Virus record (IMG/VR): IMGVR_UViG_3300025879_000113
Span: 1 to 23,393 of that record
Strand: one strand, 5' to 3'
Length of the DNA stretch: 23,393 nt
Origin: a virus
In this document: one piece after another, positions 5,418-23,278 of the stretch
Numbering within the stretch: position 1 is the first letter of the stretch
Layout of the letters: the number at the start of each line of letters is the position of its first letter
Program-made: the position numbers and the translations under genes
Notes under the pieces: model-generated
Told to the model about the DNA's origin: nothing
Seen by the model: the letters and a program-made list of their open reading frames with translations, nothing else
The model's database searches: none

Positions 5418-6593
5418 ATGAGCAAATACGCCTACTTGCGACCATATGCCACAGAACGTCAGCTTGAGTTCTTAGACATACTTGCGGATACCAATGACAA
5501 CATTAGGGCCTCCTCAAAAAAGATAGGCATAACCGAGCGAAATGCCCGCAACCTAATGAGTAGGCTCAGGCAGACAGCGGCCATTCAAGGCGTGTCGCCT
5601 GACCACGATATGAGAAGGCCAGTACCAAATGGCTTTGTCGTTTCTGGTGTATCTACTTATTACAATGAAGATGGACAGCCCACAGCCCAGTGGGTGAAGT
5701 CAAAGCTTGCAGAAAACCAGAAGCTTCAGATGCTACAAGACGCTATTGCTGACGCAGTAGAAGAGCACAGAGGCAAAGCCAAGCCCGTTAAGCAATTGAA
5801 ATCAAAGGAAAAAGAGGAAGACGTTGCTCTTATTATTCCCATGGGCGATCCTCATATTGGCATGTACGCATGGGCGGAGGAGAGCGGGGAAGACTTTGAT
5901 ATTAATATAGCCCATGACGATCTTCTAAAAGCCGCAGAAAAGCTGGTAAACATGGCTCCAACGGCTAGTCGATGCGTCATTATTAACCTTGGGGACTTCT
6001 TTCACTCCGACAACAAAGGGAATACAACCACTCGTGGAACGTCTGTTGATGTTGATACCAGATGGTCTAAGGTTTTAAAGCTTGGCTGCATGATAATGGT
6101 AGACATTATTGGGCTTGCCCTAAAGAAACATCCCCACGTTGAAGTAATTAACGCCATTGGAAACCATGATGACCACTCAAGCATTATGCTTGCCGCCTTC
6201 CTAGATGCGTATTTTAGTAACGAAGATCGTGTTACTATTCAACCCACTACGTCAAAGTTTCATTACTTTAAGTTTGGTAAGTGCTTACTGGGTGTTACCC
6301 ACGGTGACACTATAAAGCACAGTGACTTGGGTGAGGTTATGGCAACCGACAAACCAGAGGATTGGGGAGCTTCAGAGCACCGTTACTGGTACGTCGGTCA
6401 CATCCATCATTCTCGAAAGACAGAGCTGAGGGGGTGCACCGTGGAGTCGTTTAGGACCCTCGCCGCCAAGGATGCATGGCATGCAGCAAAAGGCTATCGC
6501 TCTGGTCGGGACATGAACGCTATTGTATTTCATAAGGAATTTGGTGAAATTGCCCGATACCGATGCGATATAAGGATGGCCAGATATGGGTGA
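5418..6593 (+). CDS. Calcineurin-like metallophosphoesterase with N-terminal helix-turn-helix
   Basis: 391 residues. The N-terminus (about 12-52, RQLEFLDILADTNDNIRASS to RNARNLMSRLRQ) looks like a helix-turn-helix that senses or binds DNA. Residues 134-391 form a metallophosphoesterase with the full motif set: GDPH (143-146), GDFFH (192-196), GNHD (248-251), THGD (294-297) and GHIHH (327-331). These residues normally hold two metal ions and cut phosphoester bonds in DNA, nucleotides or proteins. A linker rich in Lys/Glu (110-133) joins the halves. No clear Shine-Dalgarno precedes the ATG at 5418, so the start rests on frame and length. The 3' end overlaps the zinc-ribbon gene by 8 bases. A DNA-acting phosphoesterase is my best inference. 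The substrate cannot be told from sequence. Confidence 0.85.
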   Translation: MSKYAYLRPYATERQLEFLDILADTNDNIRASSKKIGITERNARNLMSRLRQTAAIQGVSPDHDMRRPVPNGFVVSGVSTYYNEDGQPTAQWVKSKLAENQKLQMLQDAIADAVEEHRGKAKPVKQLKSKEKEEDVALIIPMGDPHIGMYAWAEESGEDFDINIAHDDLLKAAEKLVNMAPTASRCVIINLGDFFHSDNKGNTTTRGTSVDVDTRWSKVLKLGCMIMVDIIGLALKKHPHVEVINAIGNHDDHSSIMLAAFLDAYFSNEDRVTIQPTTSKFHYFKFGKCLLGVTHGDTIKHSDLGEVMATDKPEDWGASEHRYWYVGHIHHSRKTELRGCTVESFRTLAAKDAWHAAKGYRSGRDMNAIVFHKEFGEIARYRCDIRMARYG

Positions 6594-15231: not shown

Positions 15232-18096
15232 ATGGATTTAATTATTCCTGAAAGTGTTAGAGGCGCGTTAGCTGAAGCTGATAAAGACAACACTCCGACA
15301 GCAGAAGTTAAGGGATTGATAATACCTGAGTCGGTGATGGCAAGTGTCAGTCAAAGCCCGGGCGAGATTGTCATACCTGAAAGCGTATATGCGGCCAGTG
15401 ATTCGGAAGACTCAGACTTCTTTGATGGCTTAAAGGGCTTGGCTATAGAGGCAGGCGAGGGTCTTACGTTCGGTGCTCTTGGTGAGCTAGTAGCAATAGC
15501 CCAGGCTGCAACAAGTGATGATACTTACGAAGAAGCGAAGGCGGAATACGAGGAAGCTCGCCGCCGATTCAAGGAAGAGAATCCAAACCTTGCTGAGTAT
15601 GCCCTGCCTCTTGAGCTTATAGCTTCTATACCTACAGGGTATGGCTTCTTTAAAACTTTAGGCAAGATTGGTATTAAGTCTGTTGCAAAACAGGCAGGCA
15701 TAGAAGGTGCTACCTATGGCGCTCTTTCTGGTGAAGGCGCAGAGGATCGTGCAATTAAGGCTATTACTGGTGGCGCTCTTGGCTTGTCTGGCGGCAAGAT
15801 AATTGACGTAGCAACCGGAGCTGTCAAGACTGCCGGGCGAAAGCTAAAGGATAAGTCAGACGCTAAGAAGGCAGAGAGAGAAAAGGACATCGAGCTAGAA
15901 GAAGATCTTGGTTTCGATCCTGATGCTGATAACGTCACATTAATTGAGCGCGTACCAGAGGGCGAGGAAGCTCCATATAGCCTTCTTACTGGCAATCGAG
16001 ACCCGCAGTACCAGCCAATAACAATCGTTCCAGAGGACGCTCCAGTGTCTACTGGTGGCAGTAGGGTTATACCTGAAGGTCCGGTTCGTGGTGGCGCGTC
16101 AGAGGTTGTGACTCCAGCATATAGAGAGGCTGCTCGACCACAGTTTAAACAGACAGTGGCAGGGCCAGAGATGGGGCCAAGCTGGAAAGATGCAACTAAT
16201 GCCGGCGAGTTATTCCAAGGCGTTAAGTCTGGCTTAGTAAGAACCTACCTAAGATTAAAGCCTATGACTGATCTGCTACAGAGCAGGGTTAGTCGTGGCG
16301 TTGGTGCTTTGGCTCAACGCGCAGATGAATCAGCAACCAGAACATCGCAGCTTGAGTTTGAAAATTTTGTCCAGCCTATACAAAACATAGCTGAAGAGTG
16401 GGATAACAATAAAGCTCTTAGGGAAAATACCCTTCTGCTTTCAGAGGGAAGCAGCCGAATGTCAGTAGAAAATTATCTATCTTACATTGGAAAAACTTTC
16501 GGTGAAGAATCTAAAGATAATATGGCTAGGTATCTAGCTTGGTCTAGGAAAAAGAACGTAGAGTTTAATGAAAGATTTTCTTCCCCTAAAAACGAAGTCT
16601 ATCTTCATAGGCAGAGAAGGTATAACAACAACAAAGAATACAACAAGGCTATTGAAGAAGAGTTTAGTCTTCCATTAGATCCAGCCCTCAAGAAAAGATA
16701 CCTAAGTGTTCATGACAAGATGGGAAAGGGTGGCAGGGCAAGGCTGATAGATGGCACTGACGTAGCTGACTACTATCAAAACGTATTCCTTACTAACTCT
16801 CGAAGAATAATGAACAACGAAAAGCTTCTTGAATATGGAAAGAAGTTTGGCGTTAGAGGCAAGGGCGAGACGTTAACTGCCGAGCAGATCATGCAAAGGA
16901 TTGGCCGAGAGTTAAAGAAGCGTGGCATAGAAGGTGACCGCGCTGACTTTGCTATTCAAGAAATTAGGCGTAATCTTCTTGGTGAAAGAAAGTCAATGAA
17001 CCAGATATTACAGGCACTACAAACGCTTGGATATGGCGGGTCACTTGCTGGCTTTAAGTCTGCTCTTCTTAACCTTCACGATGTTCCTCAGACCGCTGTT
17101 ACTCAGGGTCCGATGGCATTGCGATCTTGGTTCAAGAATATAGTCAAAGACAAAAACGGTAAGATGCTATCCGATAGCTTTGGCTTTAGTCAGCAGGCTA
17201 AGTACGGTGAATTTGCTAACGCATTACAGCAGACATTATCTACTCCCGGCGGGACAGCTAAGTCACTTAACAACACAGCAAACAAAACAACCAATACTCT
17301 GATGAAGCTTAGCTTGTTTCAGGTGTCAGACAAGGTTGGCAAGGGTGGAGTGTTACGTGCCGTTCAACAACGTGCTGTTGATGACGTTGAAAGGAACGGA
17401 GCTAAAGCTCTCAAGGCTAAGTGGGGCGATTACTTCTCTGATTATGAGCTACGAAAGATGGCTGATGATTTGAAGAAGCATGGAATGGATGACTCTAAGT
17501 ACAGCCAGGAGGGCCTGGAACTCATCGAGGAAATGATGATGGCTGGCCTTGGTCAGCAGCAGTTAATCTCCGCTGGTGGTAGACCTGCAATCTGGGCGGA
17601 TCACCCCAACGCTAGAGTCTTCCTTGCACTACGTGGTTTCGCCATGAAGCAGCAAGCAGTAGCACTTAGAAATACTCTCCAGAATATACAAGAGGGTAAT
17701 ATAGAAGAGGCTAAGGACTACGCTATTCGCTATGCCATATTCTCAATGGGTGCATTCGCAGCAATCAATGAGGGTAGACAAGTGCTGTTTGGTGATGGCG
17801 AGCCTAGTGCTCAACGTGTACAGAGAAGCTTCTTCGATCAACTGGTTGGTGTCATATCACTGAATAGTGCGAGTGTTAACGACTATTCGTGGGGCAAGAT
17901 ACAGAGAGGGGAGTTCCTCAGTTATGTTGTTGATAACAATACACCTATCGCTATTGGAGTTCCTGTTGAAGCTGTGCAAGATGTTCTTGATACTCTTATT
18001 GGAGAGAAAGAGATTGGCGAACTTCCCAATACTCTTCCCTTAATCAAGCAAGGACGCAACGCTATAACAAACTTCCAAGAAGCTAGTTCCAACTAA
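15232..18096 (+). CDS. Large internal virion/ejection protein with N-terminal IPESV repeats
   Basis: 954 residues. Three copies of a short motif open the protein: LIIPESV at 3-9 and 29-35, and IVIPESV at 46-52. Then comes LAIEAGEGLTFGALGELVAI and a charged helix (AKAEYEEARRRFKEENPN), followed by a Gly/Ala-rich hydrophobic block (150-200), a sequence style frequent in large phage internal proteins. A Lys/Glu-rich linker (200-330) leads to a long helical region. About 598-625 reads GYGGSLAGFKSALLNLHDVP, which resembles domains of large polyvalent phage proteins. No lytic transglycosylase Glu motif is evident. Only a weak AAGG precedes the ATG. It is the last late gene and its 3' end overlaps the opposing HNH gene by 14 bases. 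The likely role is DNA ejection. Confidence 0.65.
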   Translation: MDLIIPESVRGALAEADKDNTPTAEVKGLIIPESVMASVSQSPGEIVIPESVYAASDSEDSDFFDGLKGLAIEAGEGLTFGALGELVAIAQAATSDDTYEEAKAEYEEARRRFKEENPNLAEYALPLELIASIPTGYGFFKTLGKIGIKSVAKQAGIEGATYGALSGEGAEDRAIKAITGGALGLSGGKIIDVATGAVKTAGRKLKDKSDAKKAEREKDIELEEDLGFDPDADNVTLIERVPEGEEAPYSLLTGNRDPQYQPITIVPEDAPVSTGGSRVIPEGPVRGGASEVVTPAYREAARPQFKQTVAGPEMGPSWKDATNAGELFQGVKSGLVRTYLRLKPMTDLLQSRVSRGVGALAQRADESATRTSQLEFENFVQPIQNIAEEWDNNKALRENTLLLSEGSSRMSVENYLSYIGKTFGEESKDNMARYLAWSRKKNVEFNERFSSPKNEVYLHRQRRYNNNKEYNKAIEEEFSLPLDPALKKRYLSVHDKMGKGGRARLIDGTDVADYYQNVFLTNSRRIMNNEKLLEYGKKFGVRGKGETLTAEQIMQRIGRELKKRGIEGDRADFAIQEIRRNLLGERKSMNQILQALQTLGYGGSLAGFKSALLNLHDVPQTAVTQGPMALRSWFKNIVKDKNGKMLSDSFGFSQQAKYGEFANALQQTLSTPGGTAKSLNNTANKTTNTLMKLSLFQVSDKVGKGGVLRAVQQRAVDDVERNGAKALKAKWGDYFSDYELRKMADDLKKHGMDDSKYSQEGLELIEEMMMAGLGQQQLISAGGRPAIWADHPNARVFLALRGFAMKQQAVALRNTLQNIQEGNIEEAKDYAIRYAIFSMGAFAAINEGRQVLFGDGEPSAQRVQRSFFDQLVGVISLNSASVNDYSWGKIQRGEFLSYVVDNNTPIAIGVPVEAVQDVLDTLIGEKEIGELPNTLPLIKQGRNAITNFQEASSN

Positions 18097-18475: not shown

Positions 18476-18659
18476 CTGAACCCTCTACTAATTCTAAGAA
18501 TCGCACCTTCTCAAGGTACTCTCCCTCATGTTGATTGGAAAGCTTAATGCTTAGGTCAAACAATATAACTACGTCACACCTGAAGCGTCGAGACATAGAC
18601 TCGGCAGCCTGGACAGCTATCATGCACTCTTCACTATCGAACGGGAAATGAATGTACAT
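18462..18659 (-). CDS. Hypothetical early protein (65 residues)
   Basis: I choose the ATG at 18659 (MYIHFPFDSEECMIAVQAAE), which overlaps the stop of the upstream gene as TGATG. An in-frame GTG at 18671 would add four residues but would sit deeper in the upstream gene. The sequence is alpha/beta-like with a basic middle (SMSRRFRCDVVILFDLSIKL) and an acidic tail (LELVEGSDERD). No family is recognised. Tight overlaps on both sides make it a credible operon member. Confidence 0.55.
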   Translation of the reverse strand: MYIHFPFDSEECMIAVQAAESMSRRFRCDVVILFDLSIKLSNQHEGEYLEKVRFLELVEGSDERD

Positions 18660-18871
18660 CAATCCATCCACCCTTCTAGTTCCTTGTTGCGTCTTCTAAG
18701 CTTATAGATAGCACGCTGGTATAAGGACTTGGCTGCGTTATGTGTTATGCCAAGCTCGTCAGCTATCTCCTGCATTGTCATCTCATACAGGGGCGCTCCC
18801 GCCTTGCTATCACTGTAGCTTTCAGGCTCAGGCTTTTCTTTTTCCTTGCTCCACTCGTCAATAAAGCTCAT
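18659..18871 (-). CDS. Sigma-70 region 4-like helix-turn-helix protein
   Basis: 70 residues. The N-terminal 30 are charged and probably unfolded. 31-60 (MTMQEIADELGITHNAAKSL, then YQRAIYKLRRR) matches the region 4 type HTH of sigma factors: 'T..EIA..LGIT...A..L..RA..KLR'. This is the part that reads the -35 element. Region 2 is absent, so it is not a complete sigma factor. It could act as a transcriptional regulator, an appropriator of host RNA polymerase or a small DNA-binding factor. It starts in an ATGA overlap with the NinB-like gene. Its place at the end of the early operon would suit a switch to late transcription, which is inference. Confidence 0.65.
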   Translation of the reverse strand: MSFIDEWSKEKEKPEPESYSDSKAGAPLYEMTMQEIADELGITHNAAKSLYQRAIYKLRRRNKELEGWMD

Positions 18872-19284
18872 AGCTTCTTAATATCCTCTGATGAGAACGG
18901 TACATATACACCGGTCCTTGATCCTATCTCACTCAGAAGAGCCTCTACCGAATGTGATAGCTCTTCCTTTGTTAGTCTTGAGCTTCTATCTGTGTCAAAC
19001 ATATGTTTTATCATCGGCCTATACAACACATCTTTGATCGAATGCTCTGACCAGGGAATACCTCTCTTGGTTATTGCATCGCTCTTCATGTCATAGCCTG
19101 CATCATTCAGTGAATTCGCTAGCCTTCTGAACATTGCATGGAGTGCATGATTCTGAAGATCACTCCTAGTCATCTCCTTGATAGAGTAAGTAAACTCTTT
19201 ACCTGCATCTTGCTCTGCCATTATGAATTCACAGAAGGCTTTTGCTTGATCCTTGTTCTTAACGCTCCATGAATGTCCGCTCAT
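18868..19284 (-). CDS. NinB/Orf-like recombination protein
   Basis: 138 residues. Features shared with the lambda NinB (Orf) family are the DLQNHALHAMFRRLANSLND region (42-61) and the late segment RLTKEELSHSVEALLSEIGS followed by GVYVPF (103-130). These match the family's 'S...LT..E.S..IE.....G...GV..P' ending. Orf proteins bind SSB and single-stranded DNA and help load recombinases in RecFOR-type pathways. The start overlaps the helicase stop (TAATG) and the end overlaps the HTH gene (ATGA). The length is close to the family norm of about 140-150. Assignment is by remembered pattern, not by alignment. Confidence 0.6.
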   Translation of the reverse strand: MSGHSWSVKNKDQAKAFCEFIMAEQDAGKEFTYSIKEMTRSDLQNHALHAMFRRLANSLNDAGYDMKSDAITKRGIPWSEHSIKDVLYRPMIKHMFDTDRSSRLTKEELSHSVEALLSEIGSRTGVYVPFSSEDIKKL

Positions 19285-20192
19285 TAGTATGTCCTTGGCT
19301 TTGTAATTCTATGATATGTCTCACAGAATGTACGTGATCTGTCGCTCTGCCACAGCCCAAGCTTGCCCTCGAACTTGTGGTTTCTCTGCTTGCATATAAA
19401 TAACACAAGGTCAGGTCGGCTGTCATCAAAGCTATCGTCATCCGTCTGGCCTGTATTCTTTTTATACGCCTTCTCTTTGTCGTGCCACACAGTAATTATG
19501 GTTGAGCTAATGTTAGCTAGGTGTGAGCTACCAATGAAGTCATACTTGCCTGGTATCTTTGACTCTCCGTTCTGACCATCTGGCTTTCTTACGTGGTGTA
19601 TCAATAAGATGCAGGTTTCATACCTCTTGGCTATTGCGGCTAGTCGCTGGCTAAACTTCTGCTCTTGATTGTAGTCGTCACTTGCACCCATCATCATCAG
19701 CGCATCGAGGATAATTAGCTTGCACTCTTTATCCCTAGCCAATGCTATCGTCATTTGTAGTGCTATCTCAGGATTGATAACGTCAACAACATCATATACG
19801 TGGAGGTGTGGATCAACTGCCTTCCTTACCTTGTCCATGTACGGCATCGGTGGCGATGATCTGTCCGCTGCGAACTCACCGAACTGCTCTATGATCTCTT
19901 CCGCTGGCAGCTCAAGGCTTGCTATACCTACATTGCATCCCTGCTCTATGGCGCTGAACGCCATCTGTGCGGCTATCGTACTCTTGAAGTGGCCGCTGTA
20001 CCCTCCCATCAACACTAGCTCCTTCGGCCTTAGCAGTATCCTTCCCTCTGCTTTGTTCCACGGCAGCTTGACTCCGCTATCCTTCACTGACCTGTGCTCT
20101 TCCAGTCTGTTATACAGGGTGGTGGCGCTTACTATCTTGTGGTGCTGCAAGTCCGCCGTCTCTTCGGCTACCCTTATCTCTTTGTCTGTCAC
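19284..20192 (-). CDS. DnaB-like replicative helicase (RecA-type ATPase domain only)
   Basis: 302 residues from a GTG in a GTGA overlap. The core is a DnaB-type hexameric helicase motor: Walker A region LMGGYSGHFKST (61-72), ASLELP with E94, Walker B KLIILDA (158-164), LLIHHVRKP (197-204), and KQRNHKFEGKLGLW (268-281). The usual Gly before the Walker A Lys is Phe69, an unusual change. No DnaB N-terminal domain and no primase domain is fused. It would unwind the phage fork, loaded by the neighbouring DnaT-like protein. It could instead be a RepA-like or Sak4-like ATPase, but the KQRN motif and the neighbours favour the helicase. Confidence 0.8.
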   Translation of the reverse strand: MTDKEIRVAEETADLQHHKIVSATTLYNRLEEHRSVKDSGVKLPWNKAEGRILLRPKELVLMGGYSGHFKSTIAAQMAFSAIEQGCNVGIASLELPAEEIIEQFGEFAADRSSPPMPYMDKVRKAVDPHLHVYDVVDVINPEIALQMTIALARDKECKLIILDALMMMGASDDYNQEQKFSQRLAAIAKRYETCILLIHHVRKPDGQNGESKIPGKYDFIGSSHLANISSTIITVWHDKEKAYKKNTGQTDDDSFDDSRPDLVLFICKQRNHKFEGKLGLWQSDRSRTFCETYHRITKPRTY

Positions 20193-20548
20193 AGTACTGC
20201 TCCTGTCTTATCGTTATCCTGCTTGGGCGCATTGCTAAATCCATTCCTTGACCAGGTTCTTACGCACGCCTCCCAACTCTTGACTGTCTCTCCGTTGTTG
20301 AGCTTCCATCCCCTTGCCTCGTAATAATCAACGAACGCATTAGCATCAATGCCTGCGTTATTCTTCTTGATGTAATCACTAACATCGGCAACTGTTGGCG
20401 GGGTAAACCTTGCCCTTGGCTGAGAGGCTCTTTTCTTTTTGCTCTCGCCCATCTCCACTAACCTCTCCAGCGCAATTGTCTGTCGCTCTGCGTATACGCA
20501 TAGGGTTGTTAGTCTTGCCTCGATACAATCAAGTATCTCGTCGGTCAT
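20189..20548 (-). CDS. DnaT-like replication accessory protein
   Basis: 119 residues with AAGGAG 6 bases before ATG. The C-terminal domain (47-103), RFTPPTVADVSDYIKKNNAG then DANAFVDYYEARGWKLNNGE and WEACVRTWSRN, is the module common to phage replication initiators and DnaT-like proteins that touch DNA and recruit helicase. The N-terminus (1-45) is a charged helix with KKKR. It lies immediately before the helicase gene and overlaps it (GTGA), which fits a helicase-loading or primosome role. No ATPase motif is present, so it is not a DnaC-type loader. Confidence 0.7.
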   Translation of the reverse strand: MTDEILDCIEARLTTLCVYAERQTIALERLVEMGESKKKRASQPRARFTPPTVADVSDYIKKNNAGIDANAFVDYYEARGWKLNNGETVKSWEACVRTWSRNGFSNAPKQDNDKTGAVL

Positions 20549-20892
20549 ATCTTTCTCCTTACAGCTTGAACATATGATTGTTGATCTTCTTGGCTTAGGT
20601 TTTTGCCTGAAGCAATGTCTGCCTTGGCAATAGCAATGATGTAATCATCTAGGTCTGAGCTAGAGTCAGGCATCTTTGCTAGGTATTCATAAAACAAATC
20701 TCTAGGCTGCATACCTATAGCTGAACAAACTTCACTGATGGTACAGCCTGCATGACAGTGCATTAGTACGCCTTTGTTTCCTTCCGCTATTGATAGTGAT
20801 GGTCCTTTGTCATCGTGAGCCGGGCATCTTGATTGCCATCCTCTCCCTGACTTTCTTACGTTAGGTAATCTATTGAGCACTTGATCTATCAC
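20545..20892 (-). CDS. Primase-type zinc-finger protein (no catalytic domain)
   Basis: 115 residues from a GTG in a GTGA overlap. The zinc-binding motif of phage primases is clear: CPAHDDKGPSLSI with C23 and H26, then MHCHAGC with C46 and C50, followed by a helical stretch (ISEVCSAIGMQPRDLFYEYL). In primases this finger reads the priming site on single-stranded DNA. The TOPRIM or other catalytic core that normally follows is missing, since the remaining 40 residues are a polar helix. It may be half of a split primase, a partner for host DnaG or a DNA-binding factor. Confidence 0.7.
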   Translation of the reverse strand: MIDQVLNRLPNVRKSGRGWQSRCPAHDDKGPSLSIAEGNKGVLMHCHAGCTISEVCSAIGMQPRDLFYEYLAKMPDSSSDLDDYIIAIAKADIASGKNLSQEDQQSYVQAVRRKI

Positions 20893-21230
20893 AGGTAATC
20901 CTTTGGCTGTAGCTCTGGTAGGTTAGTAGCTGGCGCTTCCTCGCTTGTCTGCTTTCTTGTCCTGAAGAATCCATCATGATCTGGATACATCTTCATAAAC
21001 CTTCTTGCATACAGTGGCCTGAAGTTATTATTAATCTTGAACTCAGAGTCTCCGTTGCCGCCAACATCCATCTCCCATCTGATGCGCTCGAAGATTGCAT
21101 TGACAGAATAGTTTGCGTAGCCCTTGGATATGATCTCCTTGCTGAACCTTACGAACAGATCCCAAACTTCTGGGTGGTTCTTATGGTATGCCTGGCACTG
21201 AGCCTTCATCTCATCAAGACGAGTTTCCAT
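20889..21230 (-). CDS. Conserved replication-linked phage protein, function unknown
   Basis: 113 residues. An upstream in-frame ATG at 21254 would start inside the terminator's T run. The ATG at 21230 has a perfect Shine-Dalgarno (AGGAGG) four bases ahead, so I choose it. The sequence NHPEVWDLFVRFSKEIISKG, AIFERIRWEMDV, FKINNNFRPLYARRFMKMYP and GFFRTRKQ matches a short phage family often found beside replication or recombination genes and usually called hypothetical. Basic patches in RRFMK and FRTRK hint at nucleic-acid binding. It is the first gene after the mid-operon terminator. Confidence 0.7.
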   Translation of the reverse strand: METRLDEMKAQCQAYHKNHPEVWDLFVRFSKEIISKGYANYSVNAIFERIRWEMDVGGNGDSEFKINNNFRPLYARRFMKMYPDHDGFFRTRKQTSEEAPATNLPELQPKDYL

Positions 21231-21234
21231 TTGA

Positions 21235-21240
21235 CCTCCT
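21235..21240 (-). promoter_or_regulatory. Shine-Dalgarno AGGAGG deciding the start at 21230
   Basis: A full-consensus AGGAGG on the minus strand lies four bases before ATG 21230. It is the strongest ribosome site seen in the early operon and sits 12 bases after the terminator T run. Translation of the second half of the operon may therefore begin afresh here. Confidence 0.8.
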
Positions 21241-21252
21241 AAAATGAGGGAC

Positions 21253-21280
21253 AAAAAAGCCCCGACCCGAAGGCCGAGGC
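21253..21280 (-). terminator. Intrinsic terminator with UUCG tetraloop inside the early operon
   Basis: On the minus strand a nine-pair GC-rich stem (21280-21272 with 21267-21259) closes a TTCG loop and is followed at once by six T (21258-21253). Two pairs are G-U in this strand and would be A-C mismatches in the other, so it works on the early transcript only. It separates the SSB-like gene from the replication genes, leaving 22 bases before the next start codon. Confidence 0.88.
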
Positions 21281-21302
21281 AATGACTGCTTAGGAGTTTG
21301 CC

Positions 21303-21341
21303 ATGAAAGGCACTATTAAATTTACTCCGTTCGCAGAATAA
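21303..21341 (+). other. Possible 12-codon mini-ORF in the intergenic gap, opposite strand
   Basis: The 120-base gap 21231-21350 is the longest gap between genes in the window. Besides the terminator it holds, on the plus strand, AGGAG (21292-21296), a 6-base spacer and ATG followed by MKGTIKFTPFAE and a stop. It runs against the early operon. No good promoter is visible ahead of it. It may be chance or an antisense leader. Confidence 0.2.
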
Positions 21342-21350
21342 TGCAACCCC

Positions 21351-21632
21351 TTACCAAGGCATATCCTCGTCTGCAACTGCTGGTATGTTTGATGGGGCCA
21401 TACCCTTCTCACCCTTAGGCTTCCAAGTATTTACGGCGGCATACCATTTACCACTACGCCCTTCCTTAACATCGAGCGATACCCATTGCTCTCCGCTATC
21501 CTGCTTTGACTTGAGCCAGCTAATAGCTTCATCAAGTTTGATTTGGATCTTACCCTTAACAAAGTCTGGGGCTTGATCTGCTGGTGCTTTTGCAAAGATC
21601 CCTTCTGGGAATTCCATATTGTTATCCATCAT
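21351..21632 (-). CDS. Small SSB-like protein with acidic C-terminal tip
   Basis: 93 residues. Two adjacent ATGs (21632 and 21629) follow AAGGAG. The first gives ATGA overlap, the second the better 7-base spacing. The sequence FPEGIFAKAPADQAPDFVKG, IQIKLDEAISWL, WVSLDVKEGRSGKWYAAVNT reads like a small beta-barrel, and it ends ADEDMPW. An acidic tip with a bulky last residue is the feature by which SSB proteins recruit partners (DDDIPF in E. coli SSB). With an annealing-protein candidate just upstream, I infer single-stranded DNA binding. It is shorter than classical SSB (about 170). Confidence 0.55.
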   Translation of the reverse strand: MMDNNMEFPEGIFAKAPADQAPDFVKGKIQIKLDEAISWLKSKQDSGEQWVSLDVKEGRSGKWYAAVNTWKPKGEKGMAPSNIPAVADEDMPW

Positions 21633-22261
21633 TGCTCTCCTTGAGCCTGGTTTTTGCGTGCTGAGTTCATCTCATCACTCTTTAGTTTGGTGCGCTCTTC
21701 AGTTGTGAAGATACCACCCTTGCTTGGGGCAACCCACAGCGCGACAATATCATCACGCTCTAGCTCTGCCTCAACCTGTGCTGCGTAGCTGTAGTCATCA
21801 GCAAGTAACGCATTTTTAATTTCAGCTATCGCCATCAATACTAAGTTATCTTGCAAGATAAAATTGTGCTTTAGTAAATAGTCAGATGCTTGATCCTCTT
21901 TCTGCTGGCCTATTGCTCCAGCAACCTCATCGGCTGACGCTATCTCCGTACCACCCATACCGAAGAAGGCCAGTGCTCGCCCGACAGCACTGGTCTCTGC
22001 GTTCTCTAACGCACTAGTCTTGTTGATGTTACTTGCCTTACGTACCTCTTCTGCTAAACCACTGGCAATTACACGACCACATGTGTCCGTAATCTCTGCT
22101 CGCACCTGAACGTAATCGTGGTCTGCGTGTAAGACAGTTGACGTTATAGAGTAGTCGGGGTATTGCTTTCTGAAGTCATCAATACGACGGGCTACTGTTA
22201 AGTATACCTTGCCATGTATGCTGACTTCTCCCTTTGATGAATCTGCTTTTCCTTTGCTCAT
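21629..22261 (-). CDS. Putative single-strand annealing protein (Rad52-like type)
   Basis: 210 residues with AAGGAG 8 bases before ATG. The N-terminal 115 residues carry GKVYLTVARRIDDFRKQYPD, VQVRAEITDTCGRVIASGLA and NINKTSALENAETSAVGRAL then AFFGMGG. This 'GK.Y..V..RI..FR...P' start and 'K.ETSAVGRALA..G' end define a phage family that I place with Rad52-like annealing or ssDNA-binding proteins. The C-terminal 90 residues are helical and charged and probably variable. The neighbouring SSB-like gene (ATGA overlap) and the NinB-like and HNH genes downstream support a recombination role. An ssDNA-binding protein without annealing activity is the alternative. Confidence 0.55.
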   Translation of the reverse strand: MSKGKADSSKGEVSIHGKVYLTVARRIDDFRKQYPDYSITSTVLHADHDYVQVRAEITDTCGRVIASGLAEEVRKASNINKTSALENAETSAVGRALAFFGMGGTEIASADEVAGAIGQQKEDQASDYLLKHNFILQDNLVLMAIAEIKNALLADDYSYAAQVEAELERDDIVALWVAPSKGGIFTTEERTKLKSDEMNSARKNQAQGEQ

Positions 22262-22273
22262 AGCTTTAACTCC

Positions 22274-22465
22274 TTAGTGAATGTTACTTCCTTCTTTTTC
22301 TACTGCGTAATAACACTTGTAGTCATACATATCTGATAGACCAGGCAATAGTTTTATTACAACGTCCTCGACTGTCATACCTGATGGAATCCAGTGAGGC
22401 TCAATGCTTAGAAGAAGATCGCCATCCTCATCAACAATATCAATCACTCTTATTTTTTTGGTCAT
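22274..22465 (-). CDS. Hypothetical early protein (63 residues)
   Basis: I choose ATG 22465 (MTKKIRVIDIVDEDGDLLLS) with GAGG 9 bases upstream. A GTG at 22492 would add nine residues that lie inside the preceding gene. The protein is alpha/beta-like, acidic, with a short IPSGMTVEDVVIKLLPGL stretch. No family recognised. It is 12 bases from the annealing-protein gene and overlaps the preceding gene. Confidence 0.55.
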   Translation of the reverse strand: MTKKIRVIDIVDEDGDLLLSIEPHWIPSGMTVEDVVIKLLPGLSDMYDYKCYYAVEKEGSNIH

Positions 22466-22700
22466 GCTCAAAGTCCTCAAATGCCTGATCACAAGTTACG
22501 TAATCAGATGTGTAACTATAGTTGATAACCTCTGGTGTGTAATCTGTATACATACTGTACGTGTCGTCTTCGACTACACTTGACACATTCTTATCGAGAT
22601 GGCCTTTGGTTATTGCATCCATGAATATTACATACCGCTTGGTGACATCAAGCGTCACCTTGTAAAGTACATTGTTATGTAGCTGTTTAACATTCGACAA
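22440..22700 (-). CDS. Hypothetical early protein (86 residues)
   Basis: The frame opens at a TTG (22700), 10 bases after GAGGAG. No in-frame ATG lies nearby, so the TTG start is tentative. The sequence is Tyr/Asp-rich (SSVVEDDTYSMYTDYTPEVI, NYSYTSDYVTCDQAFEDFEH) and acidic. It overlaps the 55-residue gene upstream by 14 bases and the next gene downstream by 26. No family recognised. Confidence 0.5.
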   Translation of the reverse strand: MSNVKQLHNNVLYKVTLDVTKRYVIFMDAITKGHLDKNVSSVVEDDTYSMYTDYTPEVINYSYTSDYVTCDQAFEDFEHDQKNKSD

Positions 22701-22854
22701 AGCTTGGGATCTCCTCTGGTGTTATGGGTGAGGGAAGACAGTCCTCCATCTCTCTTACAAAATCTTGGAAGTCTTCCATCGTTGCCTTCCTATCCGTCTG
22801 GCTACACCAGAACAGATAGGCTTGCACCTGCGTCTCTGAGTAAACAGTCGGCAT
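22687..22854 (-). CDS. Hypothetical small early protein (55 residues)
   Basis: This short frame fills the gap between two early genes. It starts in a TAATG overlap with the upstream stop and reads MPTVYSETQVQAYLFWCSQT, then MEDFQDFVREMEDCLPSPIT and ends EEIPSFVEC. AAAGGAG lies about 10 bases before the ATG. Three Cys residues are spread out and make no metal motif. Acidic, helical in the middle. No family recognised, but the coupling at both ends is typical of this operon. Confidence 0.6.
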   Translation of the reverse strand: MPTVYSETQVQAYLFWCSQTDRKATMEDFQDFVREMEDCLPSPITPEEIPSFVEC

Positions 22855-23057
22855 TAAGAAAGCTCTCCTTTAGCTTCATTGATTGCGATGGCTATACTCT
22901 TATAGTCAACGCAGTTATTTGGATCTTCTTCAAGATCACGTAACACATTAGCCGCAGCCAATACTTGAACCGACGATAAGCTACTGTCAGCATTCTTAAT
23001 AGCTTTGTAGTACGGAGTCATAACCTCTAAGCTATCAAAAGAAAAACGAATAGACAT
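22854..23057 (-). CDS. Hypothetical early protein (67 residues)
   Basis: Two ATGs are in frame. AAAGGAG (23070-23064) touches the first (23063) and lies 6 bases from the second (23057), so the protein starts MSIRFSFDSLEVMTPYYKAI. The body is helical (ADSSLSSVQVLAAANVLRDL, YKSIAIAINEAKGELS). No family recognised. Its stop overlaps the next start (TAATG). Confidence 0.6.
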   Translation of the reverse strand: MSIRFSFDSLEVMTPYYKAIKNADSSLSSVQVLAAANVLRDLEEDPNNCVDYKSIAIAINEAKGELS

Positions 23058-23068
23058 ACACATCTCCT

Positions 23069-23278
23069 TTATACGTCACCATCTCTGGTTGCCCAGTACT
23101 CATCCATTGATTTGTCAACGAGCATCTCAAGTTCTATTGAACTCATTGACATTGGATCAATGGACTTCCCGTCAGAATAAAGCTTGTCTATATACAAGCC
23201 CTCATCTTCTACGTAAGTCCAGTAAACCTGATAAGGTTTATCCAAAACTTCTGTATCAAACACGCCGTAATTACCCAC
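23069..23278 (-). CDS. Hypothetical early protein (69 residues)
   Basis: GTG start at 23278 with AGGAG 9 bases upstream, inside the end of the preceding gene. The protein is acidic with several aromatic residues (YGVFDTEVLDKPYQVYWTYV, EDEGLYIDKLYSDGKSIDPM) and a helical C-terminus (SSIELEMLVDKSMDEYWATR). No family recognised. It is separated by 5 bases from the next gene's strong ribosome site. Confidence 0.55.
   Translation of the reverse strand: MGNYGVFDTEVLDKPYQVYWTYVEDEGLYIDKLYSDGKSIDPMSMSSIELEMLVDKSMDEYWATRDGDV

Follow-up and report, generated by a model that had tools for sequence, protein, structure and literature searches.

A predicted intrinsic terminator lies inside the early operon of this phage, after the gene for a 93-aa protein, and a terminator occupies the same position after homologues of that gene in other viruses, where its sequence has changed and the gene behind it has been exchanged. 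Thus, a position-conserved internal terminator tracks one phage gene family (37 non-redundant viral sequences) and survives replacement of the next gene. We consider it probable, at roughly 0.6, that the terminator is leaky, such that the upstream module would be expressed abundantly while the downstream genes would be fed by read-through. Throughout, 'the window' denotes the whole stretch of DNA analyzed, which is 23,393 bases long.

A single strong terminator in the window

The hairpin that we call P2 has a 9-bp stem of seven G-C and two G-U pairs, a cUUCGg loop and a folding free energy of about -15.4 kcal/mol. Intrinsic (Rho-independent) terminators consist of a GC-rich hairpin with an immediate U-tract, and the sequence of P2 provides both. 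We scanned both strands of the window for stems of at least 6 bp, with at least 4 GC, followed by at least 6 T; P2 with its TTTTTT is the sole match on either strand, and none of 40 dinucleotide shuffles of the window reaches its score. The plus strand has no T-run after the stem, and so the terminator is one-way. A first-pass annotation of this DNA had placed a nearly ideal minus-strand terminator within 21231-21350, and that description stands: P2 together with its U-tract is predicted to be a genuine intrinsic terminator.

The interval 21231-21350 is exactly the gap, on the minus strand, from the stop of the 93-aa gene (21351) to the ATG at 21230; the early operon has no other sizeable gap. 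The coordinates agree with the annotated distance of 22 bases from the end of the U-tract to that ATG. On the other side of the terminator, 70 nt separate the stop of the 93-aa gene from P2, unlike the arrangement in most relatives. This longer gap holds a second, smaller hairpin, P1, which is not striking in the window itself, where 7% of shuffles of the gap fold as well. A pairing of AACTCCTAA with TTAGGAG was considered as an anti-Shine-Dalgarno switch, and it was rejected because it is absent in most relatives. A search of the window against Rfam returned 0 matches. The positions of these features, and of the genes around them, are collected in Table 1.

Table 1. Features of the early operon around the predicted terminator, listed in the direction of minus-strand transcription.
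Feature	Position	Strand	Basis
Probable single-strand annealing protein, 210 aa, ENAETSAVGRAL motif, weak structural match to Sak	21629..22261	-	
Gene to which the terminator is tied; its 93-aa product has the SSB-like acidic tail DEDMPW	21351..21632	-	
Small hairpin P1, TGCC-TTTCAT-GGCA, upstream of P2	21299..21312	-	
AACTCCTAA, common to the window and locus L003; complementary over 7 nt to the Shine-Dalgarno region downstream	21290..21298	-	
Predicted terminator hairpin P2, GCCTCGGCC-TTCG-GGTCGGGGC	21259..21280	-	fold; stem pairing in relatives
U-tract TTTTTT, directly after the P2 stem	21253..21258	-	sequence
Spacer from U-tract to ATG, 22 nt, containing the Shine-Dalgarno sequence; 11 nt in most relatives	21231..21252	-	
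Shine-Dalgarno sequence AGGAGG of the next gene; adjoins the U-tract in most relatives	21235..21240	-	
phrog_13625, first gene after the terminator, function not assigned	20889..21230	-	
Primase zinc-ribbon protein	20545..20892	-	
DnaB-like helicase	19284..20192	-	
NinB-like protein	18868..19284	-	
70-aa protein with sigma-70 region 4-like HTH, between NinB and NinG	18659..18871	-	

Genes on either side of the terminator

The 210-aa protein encoded upstream is probably a single-strand annealing protein, given its ENAETSAVGRAL motif, which we take as pointing to that function, and its weak structural match to Sak. The 93-aa protein belongs to a family that carries the acidic C-terminal tip of phage SSBs (DEDMPW or DDDIPW). 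Neither protein has a Pfam match. An SSB fold was considered for the 93-aa protein and is unsupported: its AlphaFold model (mean pLDDT 79) has no match in the PDB at E≤0.001, and matches no OB-fold there. We therefore use 'SSB' for the modeled protein only as a working label. The five small ORFs upstream are all acidic, and the frames in 21629-23278 are so closely packed that every gap between them is shorter than 20 nt; the contig ends at 23393.

Downstream, the gene order is phrog_13625, the primase zinc-ribbon protein, a 119-aa protein, the DnaB-like helicase, NinB, the HTH protein, a 69-aa ORF and NinG. Neighboring frames overlap by 1-4 nt from phrog_13625 through the HTH gene, which suggests a single transcript over that span. 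The HTH protein is a possible regulator of late genes. The first-pass annotation placed the terminator between recombination genes and replication genes. The terminator does split the operon at this point, but the term 'recombination' depends on a weak annealing-protein match and an SSB-like tail, with no Pfam match behind either.

Several observations concern the window more broadly. The late (plus-strand) and early (minus-strand) operons converge at 18083-18096, where the gene ends overlap and no recognizable terminator is present. A DNA repair exonuclease (phrog_704, E 3e-107) is encoded at 5418-6593 on the plus strand, that is, on the strand of the structural genes and apart from the other genes of DNA metabolism. 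A DNA similarity search of the window against cultured phages found none.

The terminator goes with the upstream gene

In order to ask which neighbor the terminator accompanies, we consider homologues of the genes on both sides. Homologues of phrog_13625 were collected at 75 loci, and most have no terminator before the gene. The two nearest of them, L002 and L003, carry a terminator at the equivalent place, each of a different sequence, and the U-tract of L002 is broken; a terminator was also seen by eye at the distant locus L062, whose upstream protein ends in EEAPF. When genome contigs were scanned for phrog_13625, a single marginal match resulted. Where a phrog_13625 homologue follows some other upstream gene, a terminator is mostly missing, and so the terminator goes with the upstream gene.

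The queries for a second set were the 93-aa protein and proteins related to it; near-copies were removed, and a terminator was counted when it fell within 120 nt of the stop codon. Homologues collected with a different query protein show the same feature. A terminator follows 36 of the 37 non-redundant homologues that end in W, the window included, as opposed to 1 of the 25 that end in F (the exception being L002). Of the 249 remaining gene ends at the positive loci, 4 are followed by one. The split between W and F tails tracks relatedness, and it is a label rather than a cause; the contrast is drawn from loci L105-L179 for W and from L081-L094 and L132-L151 for F. The usual pattern consists of the stop codon, a GC hairpin, the U-tract and, 11 nt further on in most members, a start codon.

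Individual loci vary around this pattern. In L191, the lone W-tail member without a match, some 50 nt separate an AGCCC arm from a GGGCTTTTTT arm, and the two may belong to a terminator whose loop is larger. The distant L189 (28% identity to the query) has a strong terminator, but the start codon expected at the usual distance is missing. The cultured Pelagibacter phage HTVC028P encodes a homologue of the annealing protein; the small gene behind it is a different one and lacks a terminator at its end.

What lies behind the terminator differs as well. The terminator is followed by phrog_13625 and then the replication block in the window, L002 and L003, whereas in most relatives examined it is followed by a small DUF4224-like gene that closes a short operon, the helicase and NinB genes being on the other strand. 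Because the downstream gene varies in this way, the terminator has stayed with the upstream gene during the exchange. The same comparison bears on the proposal, made in the initial reading, of a control point specific to replication. This proposal is not supported, as most relatives examined have only the lone DUF4224-like gene behind the same terminator. The family tree does not discriminate between a single origin of the terminator with losses and multiple origins.

The sequence of the stem varies across relatives while its pairing is, as predicted from the aligned sequences, kept. In an alignment of 18 sequences, the outer six pairs of the P2 stem are paired in 17-18 of them, and pairs 1, 2, 5 and 6 show changes on both sides; because the alignment was positioned manually from the stem ends, register shifts may explain some of these changes. 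In a second alignment (n=20), three predicted pairs change on both sides, two of them among the four pairs called in the terminator stem. A hairpin at the P1 position, differing in sequence, occurs in every member whose gap is at least 20 nt (14 in one set, more in another), and its folding often surpasses that of shuffled copies of the gap. Members with a gap of 6-9 nt lack P1 and keep the terminator, and P1 is missing in L002 too. Covariation in P1 is limited, and no competing pairing between P1 and P2 was seen. A conserved (G/A)ACTCC lies in the P1 loop of the L157-L179 subclade, and AACTCC is found next to P1 in the window and in L003.

Promoters and antitermination signals

A consensus promoter scan of the minus strand from 21230 to 18600 found no match, although phage-specific promoters may escape a consensus. 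Consensus promoters number 8, fewer than in shuffles (mean 15.4). The annotated lack of room for a promoter between the terminator and the next start is borne out, both here (22 nt) and in most relatives (11 nt). Given this lack of space and the overlaps of 1-4 nt between genes, read-through is the simplest route to downstream expression. The initial reading went further, in holding that all downstream genes require read-through or antitermination. 'All' is an extrapolation in this case, as internal promoters beyond the reach of consensus scans are possible in 20889-18083; promoters further downstream, if present, would remove the need for read-through.

We also searched the window for a dedicated antiterminator and found no evidence of one. 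In the visible upstream part (to 23393), a lambda-type N/nut system is not apparent, as none of the five small ORFs encodes a basic, N-like protein. Matches to a boxA-like motif were tried and rejected, as they occur at the level of chance. The visible upstream operon, again to 23393, offers no intergenic room for a put-like element except in the terminator gap.

Discussion

We suggest the following account of the leaky terminator. The hairpin and U-tract would mark the 3' end of a module comprising the annealing protein and the SSB-tail protein. A host-type RNA polymerase arriving from an upstream early promoter would mostly stop at the U-tract, and would thereby yield an abundant short mRNA for proteins that are needed in quantity. 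A minority of polymerases would read through, and the resulting longer mRNA would carry the next gene, which has its ribosome site just past the U-tract; in this phage, such read-through would supply the primase, the helicase and the NinB/NinG block at a low level. Termination in vivo, the leak, and an expression ratio as its selected purpose are what we infer from the sequence. The 22-nt spacer and the 70-nt gap before the hairpin count against the leak, in that both differ from most relatives.

This phage may instead make RNA polymerase resistant to the terminator, by means of an upstream factor or RNA element, so that the hairpin acts as a timing gate (a delayed-early switch) in the manner of lambda N or HK022 put. 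The layout resembles that of lambdoid phages, in which, according to the part of PMC9378689 available, terminators precede most early genes; NinB/NinG homologues lie downstream, and the tandem hairpins P1 and P2 occur in many relatives. But the acidic upstream ORFs, the chance level of boxA-like matches, the packed frames that leave no gap for a put- or nut-like element in the visible part, and the absence of P1 from L002 all argue against such processive antitermination, and we think it unlikely. We give a still lower probability to a regulated attenuator, in which P1, the terminator and the Shine-Dalgarno sequence would together act as a switch, responding to a protein (such as the annealing or SSB-tail protein bound to its own mRNA) or to a ribosome occupying the stop codon. 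The presence of P1 in every member with a gap of at least 20 nt, the ACTCC motifs in or beside it, and the nearly constant 11-nt spacing from U-tract to ATG would all fit; members with 6-9 nt gaps, however, keep the terminator without P1, and neither competing P1/P2 pairing nor more than limited covariation in P1 is seen. A related idea, which we regard as about equally doubtful and perhaps marginally less so, is that the stop codon, P1, the terminator and the Shine-Dalgarno sequence form a heritable cassette kept through downstream swaps, with a phage protein or a ribosome at P1 toggling termination. If true, the cassette would be a feedback attenuator for the annealing/SSB-tail module.

The element might also not be a terminator in the main, but rather a stabilizer of mRNA and enhancer of translation (a hairpin and U-rich tract by the Shine-Dalgarno sequence) within a continuous transcript. 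The U-tract does adjoin the ribosome site in most relatives, and the broken U-tract of L002 is better accommodated in this way. Nonetheless, a GC hairpin followed by 6-8 U is the canonical form of an intrinsic terminator, and in the window and L003 a spacer parts the U-tract from the ribosome site, making this explanation very improbable. We assign the smallest probability of all to a full terminator combined with a separate promoter for the replication genes, located inside phrog_13625 or overlapping the hairpin. Consensus scans may miss a phage-specific promoter; even so, the space before the ribosome site is too small here and in most relatives, the minus strand has no promoter-like match over the span scanned, and the downstream genes overlap.

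The terminator marks a module boundary in early operons, and the relatives constitute a natural variant series for testing whether terminator leak tunes the dosage of recombination genes versus downstream genes.

Comparison with known systems

We found no report, in the open-access literature, of a conserved terminator arrangement after the 93-aa gene family. Internal terminators as such are nevertheless familiar devices, and this one occupies a well-conserved position. In lambda, tR1 depends on Rho. The region around it resembles ours in that a terminator precedes the replication genes of the early operon and NinB/NinG homologues lie downstream. Unlike tR1 with its nut/N system, the terminator in the window comes with no N-like protein or nut site that we could find, and it is of the plain intrinsic type; Rho-dependent termination is the concern of the available portion of PMC3526286.

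Two consecutive hairpins in early phage RNA are also found in the putRNA of HK022. As described in the accessible text of PMC9378689, put is a two-hairpin element of about 70 nt, downstream of an early promoter and upstream of a terminator, which suppresses termination; here, by contrast, the second hairpin is itself the predicted terminator. Of 6 T4-like phages, 5 have a predicted terminator after gene 32, which encodes an SSB (PMC1524935, seen in part). As in our family, a predicted intrinsic terminator follows an SSB-type gene at a position conserved across diverged phages, although the phages and the protein are unrelated to ours, and the portion of that paper available describes no coupling to the next Shine-Dalgarno sequence.

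The closest parallel for a leak comes from ABC-transporter operons of Clostridia, in which, according to the available part of PMC9045158, internal terminators with 5-8 U after SBP genes terminate more than 90% of transcription in vivo, and the downstream transcript amounts to about 9-21% of the upstream one. There, as we propose here, a terminator lies between the gene for an abundant product and genes in lower demand, and the leak sets their ratio. The Clostridia operons are bacterial, with termination and ratio both measured, while the phage terminator is predicted from its sequence. The fixed distance to the next ribosome site, which is absent from that portion of the Clostridia description, is a property of the phage family.
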